A stretch of 64,000 nt of DNA from Gemmatimonadaceae bacterium (GTDB lineage Bacteria > Gemmatimonadota > Gemmatimonadetes > Gemmatimonadales > Gemmatimonadaceae): contig JBBEBQ010000014.1 of assembly GCA_040882285.1 (NCBI GenBank), positions 1-64,000 of the forward strand, read 5' to 3'. The translations under genes and the position numbers were made by a program. The notes beneath the pieces were generated by a model. That model had not been told where the DNA came from, searched no databases, and was given only the letters and a program-made list of their open reading frames with translations. Positions 8,709 to 60,577 of the stretch are shown here, in pieces. Each line of letters opens with the position of its first letter. The first letter of the stretch is position 1.

Positions 8709-9694
8709 AGCGGCCTATCGCCGCGATCGCGGGCACGGGCCGCGGGATCCCGTCTACGGTCGTCACGAACTACGACTTCCCGGCGATGGGCATCGACACC
8801 ACGCACGAATGGATCGTCGAGCGCACCGGGATAGTCGAGCGGCACCTGGCCAAGGAGGGCGAGACTACCTGCTCGATGGCGACGGACGCGGGGCGCATCG
8901 CGATGGAGAGGGCGGGCGTCCACCCGGGGGAGCTCGACACGATCATACTCGCCACCGCCACGCCCGATCGTCTGCTCCCGTCCACCGCGGTGGACGTGCA
9001 GGCATCGCTGGGCGCGTCGCGCGCGTCGGCGTTCGATCTGTCGGCCGCGTGCTCGGGGTGGCTGTACGGCATGACCGTGGCCGAAGGAATGATCATGTCC
9101 GGCGTGGTCGAGACCGCGCTCGTGATCGGCGCGGAGAAGATGAGCTCGATCGTGGACTGGCAGGACCGCTCCACGTGCGTGCTGTTCGGCGACGGTGCCG
9201 GGGCCGTGGTGCTCAAGCGCGCGAAGACCGGCAAGGGAATTCTGTCGGCGTACTTGCGCAGCGACGGAACGCTCGCGGAGCTGCTGTACCGGCCCGAAGG
9301 CGGCGCAACCGTCCCGATAACCGCGGACGTGCTCGAGCGCCGCAGCCACCTGGTGAAGATGGCCGGACGGGAGGTGTTCAAGCACGCCGTGCGCTCGATG
9401 TCCGACGCGGCCGATCGCGCGCTCGACGGCGCCCGTCTCACCGGCGCCGACATCGACCTGCTCATCCCGCACCAGGCCAACACGCGGATCATCGAGGCGA
9501 CGGCCAAGCACGCCGGTATCTCGATGGACAAGGTGTACGTCAACGTGGACCGGTACGGCAACACTTCGTCCGCGTCGATCCCGATCGCGATAGACGAGGC
9601 GATCGAGACCGGGCGGATCAAGGAAGGATCCACGGTGCTGCTGGTGGCGTTCGGCGCGGGCTTCACCTGGGCGTCGATGGTGGTGAGGTTTTGA
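8705..9694 (+). CDS. fabH: 3-oxoacyl-ACP synthase III
   Basis: This 329-residue condensing enzyme starts fatty acid synthesis from acetyl-CoA and malonyl-ACP. The start is GTG at 8705, overlapping the plsX stop (VKRPIAAIAGTGRGIPSTVV). The catalytic triad is visible: Cys116 in DLSAACSGWLYGM, His in LLIPHQANTRII (about residue 258) and Asn in VDRYGNTSSAS (about 288). The IERTGI-type motif is present as VERTGIVERH. After the stop comes a heptad-repeat element that runs up to the fabD start. Confidence 0.96.
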   Translation: MKRPIAAIAGTGRGIPSTVVTNYDFPAMGIDTTHEWIVERTGIVERHLAKEGETTCSMATDAGRIAMERAGVHPGELDTIILATATPDRLLPSTAVDVQASLGASRASAFDLSAACSGWLYGMTVAEGMIMSGVVETALVIGAEKMSSIVDWQDRSTCVLFGDGAGAVVLKRAKTGKGILSAYLRSDGTLAELLYRPEGGATVPITADVLERRSHLVKMAGREVFKHAVRSMSDAADRALDGARLTGADIDLLIPHQANTRIIEATAKHAGISMDKVYVNVDRYGNTSSASIPIAIDEAIETGRIKEGSTVLLVAFGAGFTWASMVVRF

Positions 9695-9700
9695 GAACAG

Positions 9701-9787
9701 CTATTGGCTATTGGCTATTGGCTGTTGGCAACCGCCGCGGGCGCATCGTGCAGTTGGCCAAGAGCCAATAGCCAACAGCCAACAGCT
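9701..9787. repeat. heptad inverted-repeat element between fabH and fabD
   Basis: The left arm has three exact CTATTGG units and one CTGTTGG (9701-9728). The right arm (9756-9787) has GGCCAAG, AGCCAAT, AGCCAAC, AGCCAAC and AGCT, the reverse complement of the left units. Both arms keep a strict 7-bp period and could form a long hairpin. The element begins six bases after the fabH stop and its last base touches the fabD ATG, leaving no ordinary Shine-Dalgarno sequence for fabD. Confidence 0.9.
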
Positions 9788-11525: not shown

Positions 11526-11553
11526 AGTCACTAGTCACTAGTCACTAGTCACC
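11526..11553. repeat. heptad tandem repeat upstream of acpP
   Basis: Four 7-bp units in a row: AGTCACT three times and AGTCACC once, exactly 28 bp. It lies 17 bp before the acpP ATG, and the AGAGAGGAA ribosome site follows it. The same unit occurs at 18233-18360 and 50639-50686. No inverted partner arm is present here. Confidence 0.92.
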
Positions 11554-15071: not shown

Positions 15072-16108
15072 GCGTCACGCGCGACATTCTCGACTTCTAC
15101 ACGCACGCGCCGCTGCTCGAGCTCGGCGCGGAGGCCGATCGCATCCGGGCGGAGAAGCATTCGGGCGACGTCGTTACCTACATCATCGACCGGAACATCA
15201 ACTACACGAACGTGTGCGTGGCCGACTGCGGCTTCTGCGCGTTCTACCGCCGGCCGAAGGACAACGAGGGCTACACTCTCTCGTTCGAGCAGATCGGGGC
15301 CAAGATCGAGGAGGCCAAGTCGCTCGGCGCCGTGCAGATCCTGATTCAGGGCGGGCACAACCCGTACATCCCGTTCGACTGGTACCTCGACCTCATGCGC
15401 TACATCAAGCGCAACCACCCGATCCACATCCACGGCTTCAGCCCCAGCGAGGTGGATTTCTTCGCCAAGCTGTTCCGCATGGAAGCGCGTGAGGTGATCC
15501 GCGAGCTGGTGCGGGCCGGGCTCGACTCGATTCCCGGCGGCGGCGGCGAGATCCTGGTGCAGCGCGTGCGCGACATGGTCGCTAAGAAGAAAGCGGGCGC
15601 GGACCGCTGGCTGGAGATCATGGAGACGGCGCATCAGGAAGGGCTCAGGACGTCGGTGACGATGATGTACGGGATCGGCGAGACTCTGGCGGAGAGGCTC
15701 GAGCATCTCGAGCGCGTGCGGGAGGTGCAGTCGCGCACCGGCGGATTCACGGCGTTCATCTGCTGGCCGCTGCAGCCGGAGAACACCCCGCAGATGTCGC
15801 ACATGCGGAAGACCGACGCGGTGGATTATCTCCGCACCGTCGCGATCTCGCGCATCGTCCTGGACAACGTCCCCAACCTCCAGTCGAGCTGGGTCACCAT
15901 GGGAATGAAGATCGGCCAGATCGCGCTGCGGTTCGGCTGCAACGACTTCGGATCGCTGATGATCGAGGAGAACGTCGTGTCGGCCGCGAACACTACCCAC
16001 CGGACGACGACGCAGGAGATGGAGCGGCTCATTCTCGACGCCGGCTTCACCCCGCGCCGCCGGCGGCAGGACTACTCCGTGATCGAGGAAGCCGCGCATG
16101 CCGCGTGA
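15068..16108 (+). CDS. mqnC: cyclic dehypoxanthinyl futalosine synthase MqnC (radical SAM)
   Basis: This 346-residue radical SAM enzyme cyclises dehypoxanthine futalosine. The cluster motif is canonical here: NINYTNVCVADCGFCAFYR (C-x3-C-x2-C). LIQGGHNPYIPFDWY, GLDSIPGGGGEILVQRVR and FICWPLQPENTP are typical of the family. ATG at 15068 overlaps the mqnA stop. The hypoxanthine-removing step (MqnB) and MqnD are not in the window. Confidence 0.95.
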   Translation: MSVTRDILDFYTHAPLLELGAEADRIRAEKHSGDVVTYIIDRNINYTNVCVADCGFCAFYRRPKDNEGYTLSFEQIGAKIEEAKSLGAVQILIQGGHNPYIPFDWYLDLMRYIKRNHPIHIHGFSPSEVDFFAKLFRMEAREVIRELVRAGLDSIPGGGGEILVQRVRDMVAKKKAGADRWLEIMETAHQEGLRTSVTMMYGIGETLAERLEHLERVREVQSRTGGFTAFICWPLQPENTPQMSHMRKTDAVDYLRTVAISRIVLDNVPNLQSSWVTMGMKIGQIALRFGCNDFGSLMIEENVVSAANTTHRTTTQEMERLILDAGFTPRRRRQDYSVIEEAAHAA

Positions 16109-16691
16109 CAGCCAGCCACAGCAGAAGCCACAGCAGAAGCCACAGCAGAAGCCACAGCAGAAGCCACAGCAGAAGAGCCGGCATTCCGGCGTGGAGGCGT
16201 ATCATCCGCTGTTCGCCCGCACCGGGATCGGCTACGACTCGCACCGGTTCGTGCCGGGCAAGTTTCTCGTGCTCGGCGGCATTTCGATCCCGTCGTCGGT
16301 ATCGCTGATCGGACATTCGGATGCCGACGCTGTCGCGCACGCACTGATCGACGCCATCCTTGGCGGTGCGGCCGCGGGAGACATCGGCGAGATTTTCCCC
16401 GACACGGACGACGAGAACGCGGGACGGGACTCGATTCAGATGCTCAAGGAAGCGATCGAGCTGGTGCGCGAACGGGGGTTCATCGTGCACCAGGCGGACA
16501 TCAGCGTGATCGCGGAGACGCCCGCGATCGCGCCGCACCGGGACGCGATGCGCTCGAGGCTGGCCGAGGCTATGGGAATCTCGCCGGAGGCCGTCAGCAT
16601 CAAGGGGAAGACCAACGAGGGGATGGGATGGATAGGCCGCGGCGAAGGACTTGCATGTATCGCCGTGGCCTCTCTCGTACCCGTCCCCTAG
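16098..16691 (+). CDS. ispF: 2-C-methyl-D-erythritol 2,4-cyclodiphosphate synthase with repeat tail
   Basis: This 197-residue protein makes MEcPP in the non-mevalonate isoprenoid pathway, which supplies the quinone side chain. Metal ligands are in GIGYDSHRF and LIGHSDADAVAHALIDAILG; DIGEIFPDTD and KGKTNEGMGWIG complete the family set. Residues 7-26 are five PQQK repeats made by a 12-bp tandem repeat, absent from ordinary IspF. The ATG at 16098 lies inside mqnC; an internal start after the repeats would be possible, but no ATG occurs before the catalytic DSH motif. Confidence 0.93.
   Translation: MPRDSQPQQKPQQKPQQKPQQKPQQKSRHSGVEAYHPLFARTGIGYDSHRFVPGKFLVLGGISIPSSVSLIGHSDADAVAHALIDAILGGAAAGDIGEIFPDTDDENAGRDSIQMLKEAIELVRERGFIVHQADISVIAETPAIAPHRDAMRSRLAEAMGISPEAVSIKGKTNEGMGWIGRGEGLACIAVASLVPVP
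16116..16175 (+). repeat. 12-bp tandem repeat encoding (PQQK)5
   Basis: Five exact copies of CCACAGCAGAAG in a row within the 5' end of ispF. Because the unit is 12 bp, copy-number change by slippage keeps the frame, so the linker length could vary between strains. Confidence 0.95.
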
Positions 16692-16697
16692 GAACCC

Positions 16698-17300
16698 TTG
16701 CTCGAGAACTTCATAGAGCGGCTGAGCGGTGTGCCGCTCTTCGTGCTGTACCCGATGCTCGGTCTCCTGGCCGCCGTCGAGAACATCTTCCCGCCGCTCC
16801 CCACCGACGCGGTCGTGGCGTTCGGCAGCTTCCTCGCCGCGCGCGGGCAGGGAAATCCGTGGGCCACGTTTCTCATAACCTGGCTGTCGAACGTGGCCGG
16901 CGCGGCGGGCATGTACTGGGCGGGGAGACGGTACGGCCGCTCGGTACTGACGCGCGGCTATGCCAAATGGATCGGACCGGAAGCTGAGGTCCGTCTCGAG
17001 CGGTCGTACAGGCGGTACGGGATTCCATCGCTGTTCGTGAGCCGGTTCCTTCCCGCAGTGCGAGCGGTCGTTCCGATCTTCGCCGGCGCCGCCAAGCTAC
17101 CGTTCATCCCGGTCATCACCATCATGGCGCTGGCGTCGGGGATATGGTATGCCTTCCTCACGATCATCGCTTTCCGCGCGGGATCCAATTGGGAGACACT
17201 CCAGAGCACGATCGCGAATTACAGCCGGGCGATCACGATCCTCGCGGTGGTGATGGTGCTGGCCGCCGCCGCGATCTGGTGGAAAAAACGGCGAAGGTAG
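16698..17300 (+). CDS. DedA family membrane protein
   Basis: This 200-residue inner-membrane protein has four or five hydrophobic segments and the DedA landmarks ENIFPPLPTDAVVAFGSFLA, GRRYGRS and FVSRFLPAVRAVVPIFAGAAKL (the re-entrant Arg motif). DedA/Tvp38 proteins move or scramble lipids such as undecaprenyl phosphate and phosphatidylethanolamine. The start is taken as TTG 16698; the next methionines lie inside the first hydrophobic segment. Its end overlaps the start of the Xer gene by 22 bp. Confidence 0.85.
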   Translation: MLENFIERLSGVPLFVLYPMLGLLAAVENIFPPLPTDAVVAFGSFLAARGQGNPWATFLITWLSNVAGAAGMYWAGRRYGRSVLTRGYAKWIGPEAEVRLERSYRRYGIPSLFVSRFLPAVRAVVPIFAGAAKLPFIPVITIMALASGIWYAFLTIIAFRAGSNWETLQSTIANYSRAITILAVVMVLAAAAIWWKKRRR

Positions 17301-18232
17301 GAGCAGCGAACAGCGCGGGGGAGCAGCTGCCCGACGCGACGGCCCGCGAGTTCCTGCTCGAGCCGTTCCAGGACTTTCTCGCCGTGGAGCAGGGGCTCTC
17401 GCCGCGCACGCGGGAAGCGTACGCGCTGGACCTGGCGCGGTTCGCCATGTACGGGAAGCTCAAGGGATCGGCCGGGCCCGCGCACGTCGCTCCGCGGCTG
17501 CTCCGCGAGTACATGTACTACCTCAAGGACATCGGCCTCTCGCCCGCGTCCATTCGCCGCAACGTCTCGGCGCTGCGCACGTACTTCAAGTTCCTCGTGG
17601 GAGAAGGTCACGTGCAGCGCGACCCGAGCGACCGGCTCGAGACGCCGAAGCGGTGGCGCACACTGCCCGAGGTGCTGACGGTCGCGGACGTGGATCGCAT
17701 CCTCTCGGCGCCATCGCTGGACGAGCCGCTCGCGTTTCGCGACCGCGCCATGCTGGAGCTGGCATACAGCGCGGGGCTGCGCGTGTCCGAGTGGATCTCC
17801 ATCGGCGTGAAGGACGTGTTGTTCGAGGACGGGCTGGTGCGCGTGTTCGGCAAGGGCAGCAAGGAGCGGCTCGTGCCCATCGGACGCAAGGCGATCGGCG
17901 CGCTCGCGATCTACATGCGCGAGCTGCGGCCGAAGCTCGAGCGCGGGGAGGGGAAGGGGGCGCTGTTTCTGAATTCCCGGGGCAAGCCGCTGTCGCGCAT
18001 GGGCGCGTGGAAGATCCTGCGCAAGTACGTGGATCAGGCCGGGATCAAGAAGCGCGTCACCCCGCACACGCTGCGACACTCGTTCGCCACGCACCTTCTG
18101 GAAGGCGGCGCCGACTTGCGCGCGGTGCAGGAGATGCTCGGCCACGCGGACATCTCGACCACGCAGATTTATACGCACGTGGACAGGGAGTATCTTCGCA
18201 CGGTGCACCGGGAGTTTCACCCGCGGAAGTGA
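17279..18232 (+). CDS. xerD: tyrosine recombinase XerC/XerD type
   Basis: This 317-residue protein has an N-terminal SAM-like domain (FLAVEQGLSPRTREAYALDL) and a catalytic domain with all residues: Arg in SAGLRVSEW, Lys in [38 protein letters not shown] (His and Tyr). These enzymes resolve chromosome dimers at dif. The length and lack of the IntI insert separate it from the integron integrase at 5510. A GTG at 17279 gives a normal length; longer readings run into DedA. XerC cannot be excluded. Confidence 0.87.
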   Translation: MEKTAKVGAANSAGEQLPDATAREFLLEPFQDFLAVEQGLSPRTREAYALDLARFAMYGKLKGSAGPAHVAPRLLREYMYYLKDIGLSPASIRRNVSALRTYFKFLVGEGHVQRDPSDRLETPKRWRTLPEVLTVADVDRILSAPSLDEPLAFRDRAMLELAYSAGLRVSEWISIGVKDVLFEDGLVRVFGKGSKERLVPIGRKAIGALAIYMRELRPKLERGEGKGALFLNSRGKPLSRMGAWKILRKYVDQAGIKKRVTPHTLRHSFATHLLEGGADLRAVQEMLGHADISTTQIYTHVDREYLRTVHREFHPRK

Positions 18233-18360
18233 AGTGACTAGTGACTAGTGACTAGTGACTAGTAAGTGCTACGTCGTTCTACGTATCCCGCGCGACTCCT
18301 CGGACACGGCATCGTTCGCTAGGTTCTCTTGCAGTTACCAGTCACTAGTCACTAGTCACC
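18233..18360. repeat. heptad inverted-repeat element between xer and trpG
   Basis: Left arm: four exact AGTGACT units (18233-18260), beginning at the base after the Xer stop. Right arm: AGTTACC, AGTCACT, AGTCACT, AGTCACC (18333-18360), ending at the base before the trpG ATG. The arms are reverse complements and enclose about 72 bp. The element fills the entire intergenic space and leaves trpG without a Shine-Dalgarno sequence. Confidence 0.93.
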
Positions 18361-18936
18361 ATGCTTTTAGTAATCGACAACTACGACTCCTTCACCTACA
18401 ATCTCGTGCAATACCTCGGCGAGCTCGGAGAAGAGCTCGTTGTGCGCAGGAACGACGAGATCGAAGTGGAAGAGATCGGCGAGCTGAAGCCGCACGCGAT
18501 GGTCATCTCGCCCGGTCCGGGCGTCCCCGCCGACGCGGGCGTGACGATCCCGGCGATCAGGCGCTGGGGACCGGAGATTCCGACGCTCGGCGTCTGCCTC
18601 GGACACCAGGCCATCGGCGAGGCGTTCGGCGGCGAGGTCGTGCGGGCGCGCGTGGTCATGCACGGCAAGACGTCGCGGATCCGGCACTCCGGCACGGAGC
18701 TGTTCGAGGGCCTGCCCGACCCGATGGAAGTGATGCGCTATCACTCCCTGGTCGTCGAGCCGGATAGCTTACCGGACGATCTGGAGGTAGTCGCTACGGC
18801 AATCGACAATCCGGCGGAGATTCACGCCATCCGACACAAGACTTTTCCAATCTGGGGAGTGCAATTCCATCCGGAGTCCATCATGACGCCGGAGGGGAAG
18901 GCGCTGCTCGCCAATTTCCTGAGGATCGCCGGATGA
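18361..18936 (+). CDS. trpG: anthranilate / aminodeoxychorismate synthase glutamine amidotransferase (TrpG/PabA)
   Basis: This 191-residue class I glutamine amidotransferase gives ammonia to a chorismate-using synthase. It has LVIDNYDSFTYNLVQYLGELG at the start, SPGPGVP, the nucleophile Cys79 in LGVCLGHQAIGEAFGG, and WGVQFHPESI with the catalytic His and Glu. The partner TrpE or PabB is not in this window, so tryptophan or folate use cannot be decided. The stop overlaps the next ATG. Confidence 0.9.
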   Translation: MLLVIDNYDSFTYNLVQYLGELGEELVVRRNDEIEVEEIGELKPHAMVISPGPGVPADAGVTIPAIRRWGPEIPTLGVCLGHQAIGEAFGGEVVRARVVMHGKTSRIRHSGTELFEGLPDPMEVMRYHSLVVEPDSLPDDLEVVATAIDNPAEIHAIRHKTFPIWGVQFHPESIMTPEGKALLANFLRIAG

Positions 18937-20432: not shown

Positions 20433-20460
20433 CCGCTTCAGGGGCGTCAGCGGACAACAG

Positions 20461-20606
20461 GGTTGGGTTACTGGTCGTTGGTTTTGGTGCTGGTTAACTG
20501 ATTGGTTACTGGTGGTCGGTTGATGGCTGTTCCGTTGTTACCGCCCACAATCGACCCGCAACCGGCAGTTAACCACCACCAACACCAATAACCTGTAACC
20601 CGAACC
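20461..20606. repeat. heptad inverted-repeat element upstream of kdsB
   Basis: The 262-bp gap before kdsB holds a GT-rich left arm in which GG recurs mostly every seven bases (GGTTACT, GGTCGTT, then GGTTACT, GGTGGTC, GGTTGAT, GGCTGTT). An AC-rich right arm (20567-20606) reads like its reverse complement (AACCACC, ACCAACA, CCAATAA, CCTGTAA). The copies are degenerate compared with the other elements. It could act as a terminator for the barrel gene. No open frame fits the gap. Confidence 0.65.
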
Positions 20607-20694
20607 TGTTTTTCAGCGGCCTATCGTATCAACCCCTCGCGCTTGCGATTATATTGCGGAGCGTGACTAAATCAGCCCTCCGGTCAGCTCACGC

Positions 20695-50215: not shown

Positions 50216-50280
50216 TGCAACCTCGCTGCATTGATGACGCCGGAATAGACGCGCAAACGAGGTGCCAGAAGCGGAGAAAA

Positions 50281-50312
50281 CAGCTGGCAGCTGGCAGCTA
50301 GCAGCTAGCAGC
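50281..50312. repeat. heptad tandem repeat after the acylphosphatase gene
   Basis: CAGCTGG, CAGCTGG, CAGCTAG, CAGCTAG and CAGCG follow each other with an exact 7-bp period (50281-50313). It lies between the start of the BON gene and the stop of the acylphosphatase gene, 10 bp after that stop. The units are near-palindromic (CAGCTG, AGCT), so the array can also fold on itself. No separate inverted arm is seen. Confidence 0.88.
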
Positions 50313-50321
50313 GAACAACAA

Positions 50322-50594: not shown

Positions 50595-50638
50595 TTGAGT
50601 GTTCCGCGACGGAGCGTGGGAGAGCAGTTCGTACTTCG

Positions 50639-50686
50639 TAGTTCCTAGTCACTAGTCACTAGTGACTAGGAACTAGTAACTAGTCA
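50639..50686. repeat. heptad element with perfect 18-bp inverted repeat
   Basis: TAGTTCCTAGTCACTAGT at 50639-50656 is exactly the reverse complement of 50658-50675, with one base between them. The sequence is built of AGTCACT/AGTGACT-type heptads and continues with AACTAGTAACTAGTCACC up to the stop codon of the minus-strand gene at 50684, whose TGA is part of the repeat. The same unit occurs at 11526 and 18233. Confidence 0.93.
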
Positions 50687-58153: not shown

Positions 58154-60577
58154 ATGCGCCCCTCTTCCCACGTAGCGATGAACCGGAATCCCCCGCTGGT
58201 CAAGGAAATCGAGACGTACGCCCAGGACATCGTCGAGACGGTGCGGGAGCCGCTGCTCATGCTCGACAATGCCCTCCGCGTCCGCAGCGCGAACCGTGCC
58301 TTCTACCAGACGTTCCGCGTCTCCCGCGAGGAGACCGAGGACCGGCTCATCTACGAGCTGGGGAACGGGCAGTGGGACATTCCGGCCCTGCGCACCCTGC
58401 TCGAGGACGTGATCCCGACCAGCTCGGTGTTCAACGACTTCGAGCTGGAGCACACCTTCCCGATCATCGGGCGGCGGATCATGCTGCTCAACGGCCGGAA
58501 GCTGCGGGCGGGCAGCCACGCCGAGCTGCTGGTGCTCGCGATGGAGGACGTGACCGAGCGCCGGCGCGTGGAAGCGGATCTAAAGGCGATCGAGACGTAC
58601 GCGCAGAACATCGTCGACACCGTGCGCGAGCCCCTGCTCATTCTCGACACCACGCTGCGCGTGCGGTCCGGCAACCGCGCGTTCTACCAGACATTTCAAG
58701 TCTCGCTGGAGGAGACTGAGAACCGCCTGATCTACGAGCTGGGCAACGGTCAGTGGGACATCCCCGCCCTGCGGACGCTGCTGGAAGACATCGTGCCGAT
58801 GAGCTCCGTGTTCAACGACTTCGAGCTCGCCCACGACTTCCCGGTGATCGGCTGGCGGGTGATGCTGCTCAACGCGCGAAAGCTGCAGGCCGGCCATCAC
58901 GGCGAGCTGCTGGTGCTGGCGATGGAAGACGTCACCGAGCGCCGGCGCGCGGAAGAGGAAGTCGCCAAGGCGAAGGAAGCGTCGGAGACGGCCAACAAGA
59001 CCAAGAGCCTCTTCCTCGCCAACATGAGCCACGAGCTGCGCACTCCGCTCAACGCCATTCTTGGCTACTCGGAGATGCTCCAGGAAGAAGCGATCGAGCG
59101 GGAGCTCCTGGAGTTCGGCGGCGATCTCGAGAAGATCAACAGCGCGGGCAAGCACCTGCTCACCCTCATCAACGACATTCTGGATCTTTCCAAGATCGAA
59201 GCCGGCAAGATGGAGCTGTTCCTGGAGAGCTTCGAGATCGCCGGAATGGTGAATGAAGTGGCCTGCACGTTTCAGCCGATGGTCGAGACGAACGCCAACA
59301 CGCTGCACGTCGAGCTGGCGCCCGACCTCGGCGCGATGCACGCCGACCAGATCAAGGTTCGCCAGGCGCTGTTCAATCTCCTGTCCAACGCCGTCAAGTT
59401 CACGCAGAACGGCAGCATCACGCTCGAGGCCGGCCGGGAGCCGATGGATGGTGAAGACTGGGTCGTATTCCGCATCACGGACACCGGCATCGGCCTGAGC
59501 GCCGACCAGATCGTCAAGCTCTTCCAGGACTTCACCCAGGCGGACGCGTCCACCACGCGGAAGTTCGGCGGTACCGGGCTGGGTCTCGCGCTCACCCGGA
59601 GATTCTGTCAGATGATGGGCGGCGACGTCACGGTGCACAGCACGCCGGGCGAGGGGTGCGTGTTCACCATCAAGCTTCCGGCGCACGTGTCGGACCCGCT
59701 TCCCGAGCTCGCGAGCGTGAAAGGCGACGTAGTCGCCGGCGCCGCAGGCAGCCGAGTGGACGAAAGCGGGGTTACGCTCACACCCGGCGCGACGTGCATT
59801 CTCGTGATCGACGACGACCCGACTCAGCGGGAGCTGATGAATCGGTTCCTGACCGGCGAAGGCTTCAATGTGCGCGCCGCTGGTAGCGGAGAGGAAGGGC
59901 TTCGGCTCGCGCGCCAGTTCAAGCCGGTCGCGATCACGCTCGACGTGATGATGCCCGGCATGGACGGCTGGAGCGTCTTGTCCTCGCTCAAGTCCGACCT
60001 CGCACTGCGGGACATCCCCGTGATCATGGTGACCATGGTGGACGATCCCGACCGTGGCTTCACCCTCGGCGCGGCCGACTACGCCACCAAGCCGATCGAT
60101 CGCAGCCGCCTGGCGCAGATCCTCCGGAAGTACACGTGCGACAGCCCGCCCTGCCCCGTGCTCCTGGTGGAGGACGATCCGTCCACGCGCGCGCTCACGC
60201 GGAAGATGCTGGAGAAGGAAGGCTGGAAGGTCAGCGAGGCCGAGAACGGCCGCGACGCGCTGGAGAGCATGGAGCGGGAGCGCCCGCGCCTCATCCTGCT
60301 GGACCTGATGATGCCGGAGATGGACGGCTTCGAGTTCGCCGAGCGCGTTCGCCGGCATCCGGAGTGGCGCTTAATTCCGATCGTGGTCCTGACCGCGATG
60401 GATCTCACGACCGACGACCGGCAGCGGCTGAACAGCTACGTGGAGTCGATCATCCGGAAGGGCGGCGACTCGCGCGAATCCCTGCTCAATCAGGTGCGCG
60501 ATTTGCTGGACGATCACAGGTCGCCCCTCGCCGCGACCCAGGCGATGTATGATGACGCCGTGGGGGTGCCGGCGTGA
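58154..60577 (+). CDS. hybrid sensor histidine kinase: PAS-PAS-HisKA-HATPase-REC-REC
   Basis: This 807-residue cytoplasmic protein has two nearly identical PAS domains (I19-E140, then I146-E267; about 100 of 122 residues are identical). HisKA follows (SLFLANMSHELRTPLNAILGY), then HATPase_c (ALFNLLSNAVKFTQNG, DTGIGLS, GTGLGLALTRRF). Two receiver domains come last (ILVIDDDPTQRE...LDVMMPGMDGW; VLLVEDDPSTRA...LDLMMPEMDGF). ATG 58154 with GAGG is preferred to a TTG at 58136. It overlaps the response regulator gene, and a stand-alone HisKA protein follows. Confidence 0.95.
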   Translation: MRPSSHVAMNRNPPLVKEIETYAQDIVETVREPLLMLDNALRVRSANRAFYQTFRVSREETEDRLIYELGNGQWDIPALRTLLEDVIPTSSVFNDFELEHTFPIIGRRIMLLNGRKLRAGSHAELLVLAMEDVTERRRVEADLKAIETYAQNIVDTVREPLLILDTTLRVRSGNRAFYQTFQVSLEETENRLIYELGNGQWDIPALRTLLEDIVPMSSVFNDFELAHDFPVIGWRVMLLNARKLQAGHHGELLVLAMEDVTERRRAEEEVAKAKEASETANKTKSLFLANMSHELRTPLNAILGYSEMLQEEAIERELLEFGGDLEKINSAGKHLLTLINDILDLSKIEAGKMELFLESFEIAGMVNEVACTFQPMVETNANTLHVELAPDLGAMHADQIKVRQALFNLLSNAVKFTQNGSITLEAGREPMDGEDWVVFRITDTGIGLSADQIVKLFQDFTQADASTTRKFGGTGLGLALTRRFCQMMGGDVTVHSTPGEGCVFTIKLPAHVSDPLPELASVKGDVVAGAAGSRVDESGVTLTPGATCILVIDDDPTQRELMNRFLTGEGFNVRAAGSGEEGLRLARQFKPVAITLDVMMPGMDGWSVLSSLKSDLALRDIPVIMVTMVDDPDRGFTLGAADYATKPIDRSRLAQILRKYTCDSPPCPVLLVEDDPSTRALTRKMLEKEGWKVSEAENGRDALESMERERPRLILLDLMMPEMDGFEFAERVRRHPEWRLIPIVVLTAMDLTTDDRQRLNSYVESIIRKGGDSRESLLNQVRDLLDDHRSPLAATQAMYDDAVGVPA

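Follow-up and report, generated by a model that had tools for sequence, protein, structure and literature searches.

Inverted arrays of seven-base units at inherited intergenic slots in Gemmatimonadaceae

In a Gemmatimonadaceae genome and its congeners, the gap between an xer-type recombinase gene and trpG carries two arms of tandem seven-base units pointing towards each other, and the same layout is dispersed over many other gaps between genes. The account that we find rather probable is that an element made of a pair of heptad arrays was inserted, that its slot is inherited, that its arms were then replaced in place as a word spread between arrays, and that the element would serve as a hairpin in RNA.

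Results

Two inverted arms span the gap between xer and trpG

In the window (the whole stretch of 64,000 nucleotides analysed), an xer-type tyrosine recombinase gene lies on the forward strand at 17297-18232; its start is not exactly settled, and its stop codon TGA occupies 18230-18232. It has a Phage_integrase Pfam match (1.6e-50) and an orthologue that is 93% identical in contig CALMKE010000067.1 (L071). On the same strand follows trpG, a class-I glutamine amidotransferase gene (18361-18936, ATG at 18361; Pfam GATase, 1.2e-60).

The left arm (18233-18263, forward strand) consists of four AGTGACT units plus AGT, 4.4 copies at 100% match according to TRF, and begins at the base after the xer TGA. 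The right arm (18333-18360), inverted with respect to the left one, reads AGTTACC, AGTCACT, AGTCACT and AGTCACC and its last base directly precedes the trpG ATG. A first-pass annotation of this DNA had reported both contacts, and both are confirmed, with exact AGTCACT in only two of the four right-arm units. The same annotation had the heptads filling the whole gap; both flanks are indeed flush to codons, but the central 69 bp (18264-18332) are a non-heptad core. The inverted pair spans the gap from edge to edge, and the arrays themselves do not fill it. The core has diverged among congeners except for a slot-specific conserved motif, GCTACGTNNNNNTACGTATCC (18268-18288), which resembles an inverted repeat.

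The heptad arms at this junction are not a product of chance. With up to two mismatches, the two-unit pattern AGTGACTAGTGACT matches the 64-kb window 23 times against 0.11 expected, and genome-wide it has 210 exact matches against 3 for a reversed control pattern. Folded as RNA, the gap reaches -63.2 kcal/mol (z -6.3); its loop is long, and there is no T run ahead of the trpG ATG. An Rfam search of the window matched only a tRNA.

The window holds further arrays. A second element of the class (9695-9787), with GCTATTG/GCTGTTG arms, lies almost directly against a TGA stop on one side and an ATG on the other; it is the same in the congener G003 and a short remnant in G001. Upstream of a small acyl-carrier-protein-like gene stands a single-arm array of 3.9 AGTCACT units (11526-11553), unchanged in G001, degenerate in G003 and absent from G002. 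An inverted element of the GGTTACT type, degenerate and with a T run behind it, lies in the gap at 20433-20694; G001 has no such element. Tandem repeats also occupy the gaps at 50216-50321 (CAGCTGG/CAGCTAG) and 50595-50683 (a mixed array of TTCGTAC, TAGTCAC, TAGTGAC and TAGTAAC).

Repeats of other kinds were seen as well. At 16114-16175, near the start of the frame 16098-16691, a perfect 12-bp repeat, AGCCACAGCAGA, in 5.2 copies encodes QKPQ repeats; it is a single copy in G001 and absent from G002 and G003. A 381-bp tandem duplication (80% match in TRF) lies at 58208-58959, its unit apparently coding.

A dispersed class with several words on a common core

The source genome (G000) was sampled over 864 kb, namely contigs C5 and C10 (400 kb each) and the 64-kb window. 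This sample contains 114 intergenic and 14 genic arrays of period 7; periods 4, 5, 8, 10, 11 and 13 give 0-2 intergenic arrays each. Arrays are borne by 83 of the 457 gaps of at least 20 bp. Several unrelated heptad words coexist within the genome, AGTGACT, GGCTNTT, GCTGCGT and AGCAGCT being dominant. In 40 of 45 slots with two arrays the order is inward, with a GTGACTA-type array on the left and a TAGTCAC-type array on the right. We listed 86 inverted pairs, with arms mostly of about 30 bp; a few carry different words on the two arms.

Elements with different words have features in common. Their outer ends show preferred bases (AGCTNTT or GTGAYT), and GGCTNTT- and GTGAYT-armed elements share two core motifs: AACNGC adjoins one arm, and TTCCGC stands about 4 nt away from the opposite arm. 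Both motifs occur in 6 of 39 GGCTNTT-armed and 4 of 20 GTGAYT-armed spacers, against 0.02 and 0.01 in shuffled spacers; both counts were made on a single collection of 86 pairs, whose spacers had been read before the motifs were picked. In GGCTNTT, the variable base is not mirrored between the two arms of an element: in G000 and G003 we counted 66 matches, compared with 80 +/- 5 when arms were swapped between elements. This argues against one arm being copied directly from the other, and perfect palindromes are perhaps avoided.

All genomes compared are fragmented draft assemblies. Contigs C3, C5, C11, C21 and C27 of G000 begin or end in or near AGTGACT arrays, so the longest arrays have probably been broken or shortened in assembly.

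Arrays lie close behind stop codons

Arrays stand at a median of 4 bp from the stop codon (63 of 90 within 12 bp), compared with a median of 38.5 bp from the start codon (22 of 84 within 12 bp; p = 5e-9), in gene calls by a simple dicodon caller whose stops are exact and whose start-codon offsets are approximate. Of 20 array slots at convergent junctions, 14 have 15 bp or less left over; among array-free gaps, 21 of 75 are that small (p = 0.001). Arrays are also present between convergent and between divergent genes.

The gap of an array-free congener was set against the flanks left over in G000. The two are usually close (126/124, 9/0, 161/184, 11/10, 1/4, 8/0, 146/167 and 0/13 bp), and a few pairs fit less well (16/49, 180/10 bp). 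Because the gaps of array-free relatives are usually about the size of the leftover flanks, the flush fit points to insertion into a short gap. Insertion of the whole element is the usual case, with a preference for sites just behind stop codons.

The first-pass annotation had considered that so exact a fit is not expected from random insertion. Proximity to stops is indeed found genome-wide; insertion into a short gap accounts for the fit. Its further suggestion, that the unit may have grown from the stop-codon region, is not supported in view of four different heptads at one junction, the empty sites and the flush arrays that have no TGA. The 3' end of xer does read AAGTGA, similar to the AGTGACT unit, and most AGTGACT arrays that touch a stop contain the stop codon (TGA or TAG) in register; the xer TGA itself is out of register with its array, and arrays of the GGCTNTT type, without any TGA, are equally flush to stops. 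The annotation had also named a mobile-element target duplication as evidence against its idea; inspection by eye of a few empty sites showed no obvious one.

The same junction carries four words in four congeners

An inverted heptad pair is found between xer and trpG in all four congeneric genomes, built of AGTGACT in G000, CGTGATT/AGTGATT in G001, TCAGTGA in G002 and TCAGGTA in G003. The left arm has 4, about 4, about 6 and 12 units, respectively, between a constant xer stop and trpG start. Variable copy number between constant codons is what the first-pass annotation had named as support for its idea, and the fixed orthologous sequence that it had set against its idea was not found. In G001 and G002 a few non-heptad bases separate an arm from a codon. 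TCAGGTA arms also occupy the junction in L071. Among 20 genomes of other Gemmatimonadaceae genera, mostly represented by 20 kb each, most have few or no arrays and a short array-free xer-trpG gap; the exceptions are G012, with GCTATCA arms in the slot, and L076, with degenerate arms.

Between the arms, GCTACGTNNNNNTACGTATCC is the sole stretch clearly conserved across the congeners. Each of G000-G003 has a single copy of its shorter form, TACGTNNNNNTACGTATCC, invariably located in this slot; G012 has none. The motif is possibly a control element of trpG, a candidate promoter or operator. Since it stayed in the core as the words came to differ, the arms of this slot were changed in place.

Slots are inherited and words change together

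Array slots of G000 tend to be occupied in its relatives (about 23 to 27 orthologous array slots per species). Slots with arrays in both genomes, in G000 only, in the relative only and in neither number 16/5/2/77 for G001 (Fisher p = 2e-12), 10/11/2/57 for G002 (p = 1e-5) and 23/1/3/111 for G003 (p = 7e-22); 23 of the 24 comparable G000 slots are thus filled in G003 too. Congeners differ in their arm words, and a change in one arm is nearly always accompanied by a change in the other.

Unit counts in the samples follow the species: 158 GTGACT and 30 GTGATT in G000, 13 and 66 in G001, 46 TCAGGTA in G003 and 20 TCAGTGA in G002. In four two-arm AGTGACT slots, a small set, 30 GTGAC units of G000 correspond to 30 GTGAT and 6 GTGAC units in G001, its closest relative, with both arms affected. 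Outside arrays, over 112 kb aligned at 92% identity between the same genomes, GTGACT kept its C at 18 of 19 sites and became GTGATT at none of the 19. Mosaic arrays in G001 hold both words. The single-arm array at 11526-11553, in contrast to the four two-arm slots above, has the same word in G001.

The orthologous spacer is still recognisable at slots 78 and 80, scoring above every other spacer with at most one exception, as in-place change would have it. It can no longer be recognised as the same at slots 31, 43, 47 and 511, which leaves room for replacement by re-insertion at these.

Folding persists across words

Gaps with arrays have a median fold z of -4.2, compared with -1.8 in control gaps, array-free gaps also folding better than their shuffles. 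Orthologous elements with different words mostly fold strongly, and the xer-trpG slot does so with its four words in the four congeners (z -5.8, -4.0, -6.0 and -11.8). Downstream of the hairpin, the outer flank has a T content of 0.33 on both strands, against a background of 0.18. TTTT follows the hairpin in 6 of 45 cases on the stop-facing side and 5 of 45 on the control side; with so few T runs, the elements are probably not canonical intrinsic terminators.

Discussion

We propose the following course of events. The element consists of two inward-pointing arms of about 4.4 seven-base units each, with the same polarity, around a core, and was inserted into short intergenic gaps, with a preference for places just behind stop codons. 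Its slots are inherited, and the words of both arms differ, nearly always together, between congeners. Each species may have a few current heptad words; slippage and exchange between dispersed arrays, either by gene conversion or through new copies from the prevailing family, would spread the prevailing one. In the role that we prefer, put forward with less assurance, the RNA hairpin may act as a two-way terminator, or as a barrier at 3' ends, between adjacent genes. A role of the hairpin in RNA could explain why folding is kept and sequence is not. At xer-trpG, the arms may bracket the trpG control site and so separate trpG control from xer transcription. A more far-reaching version, to which we give a rather low probability, is an active process in the genus that would rewrite heptad arms in place, genome-wide, from the current species-specific word, by means of a template or an enzyme, keeping position and structure and replacing both arms at many loci.

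Of the other explanations, the most substantial, if still unlikely, is a MITE-like mobile element moved by a transposase, for which gene ends would be hot spots; loss of older copies and arrival of fresh ones would then make the heptad differ between species. Cleanly filled and empty sites, a core common to different loci, the preferred bases at outer ends and the non-orthologous spacers at slots 31, 47 and 511 all agree with it. It is harder to reconcile with a slot-unique motif kept between changed arms at xer-trpG in four species, with the spacers still recognisable at slots 78 and 80, with the mosaic arrays of G001 and with the fact that no target duplication stood out in the handful of empty sites inspected by eye. 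Two specific machineries were searched for. Y1_Tnp (PF01797), the mark of RAYT, had no match in G000-G003 in a search that was positive in 5 of 14 control genomes, which rules out RAYT-driven REP; RVT_1 was absent from G000, G001 and G002 (two matches in G003), and a reverse-transcriptase template is rejected for these three genomes. The heptads might instead be sites for a DNA- or RNA-binding regulator of trpG translation or transcription, their words drifting with its specificity. This was proposed for the TAACTGA heptads of Beggiatoaceae (PMC4679880), and the direct array that closely precedes the acyl-carrier-protein-like gene and is the same in G001 would suit it; the predominance of arrays behind stop codons, convergent junctions included, and the presence of several unrelated words in one genome make it quite unlikely here.

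The remaining explanations concern how the words arise. Template switching across the hairpin is a known process (PMC8794818) and could keep the arms identical without exchange between loci, both arms carrying the same word; yet the variable base of GGCTNTT fails the mirror test, which speaks against arm-to-arm switching as the main homogeniser, and a C to T change that recurs at four loci calls for one shared cause; we give this little credence. Growth out of the stop-codon region, the origin suggested in the first-pass annotation, might have proceeded locally through polymerase slippage; it would fit the variable copy number between constant codons and the unit-like end of xer. The empty sites contradict it, as do the different words at the same junction, the equally flush arrays without TGA, the inverted second arm and the common cores, and we regard it as very improbable. 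Hardly any weight falls on context-dependent mutation, such as deamination of methylated C, which would turn GTGAC into GTGAT. The change is indeed C to T in the unit strand, but GTGACT outside arrays did not become T, by which methylation and deamination are ruled out, and such mutation cannot produce TCAGGTA.

Insertion followed by replacement in place, as proposed above, can be set beside several known systems. To our knowledge, heptad repeats of bacteria have been on record for decades, and no mechanism has been given for them. The STRR repeats of cyanobacteria (cited in PMC4692102) resemble those of G000 in that several tandem heptanucleotides are dispersed in one genome; we know of no inverted pairing or word switching at orthologous slots among them. 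Intrinsic terminators share the stable intergenic hairpin behind stops and the T-enriched downstream flank, whereas the heptad elements have long heptad arms and few true T runs and occur also between divergent genes.

The closest precedent is the GGGNATC type, GGGAATC in Xanthomonas and GGGGA(C/T)T in Nostoc, which is intergenic and mostly of about four units, with 70-75 convergent inverted pairs per Xanthomonas genome (PMC4692102). There the G-richer strand lies close behind stops, sometimes overlapping them, and in a sister species 83% of cases keep their gene context, with variation in both length and sequence (PMC4692102). Unit length, intergenic location, convergent pairing, stop proximity and kept gene context are thus alike. 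One G-quadruplex-forming word dominates in that type (PMC4692102), whereas G000 has several coexisting words, a common core and a word that changes between congeners at one slot; its dominant words AGTGACT, GGCTNTT and GCTGCGT have no GGG run. The TAACTGA heptads of Beggiatoaceae, Cyanobacteria and Bacteroidetes are likewise dispersed and intergenic, vary in 7-nt indel steps and often adjoin codons, but in the best-studied genome they are almost only direct repeats (one indirect), mostly just upstream of starts (PMC4679880). The G000 elements have a different unit, are mostly inverted pairs behind stops, and stand at a median of 38.5 bp on the start side. REP/BIME sequences with RAYT are dispersed extragenic inverted repeats, species-specific, in which the palindrome is kept as the sequence changes (PMC2817692). 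The heptad elements resemble them in all these respects, but have no GT(A/G)G head (their outer ends being AGCTNTT or GTGAYT), have tandem heptads as arms and lack a Y1 transposase. Relative to the literature cited here, several words per genome on a common core and word switching at inherited slots are new.

That the architecture recurs here in the absence of G-runs suggests that what counts is the inversion of the arms and their position behind stops, not quadruplexes. Hairpins in the same gap with different words on both arms point to a process that renews repeats together across a genome, and orthologous slots with different words in four congeners offer a testable case of concerted evolution among very short dispersed repeats in bacteria. 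The word-switched slots are also natural experiments on how hairpins act at gene ends.

The layout of the heptad elements recurs in another phylum: a Latescibacterota contig (L127) carries at 9238-9330 an inverted GGGGATC pair, followed by six T (to 9336), beside the end of a reverse-strand frame.
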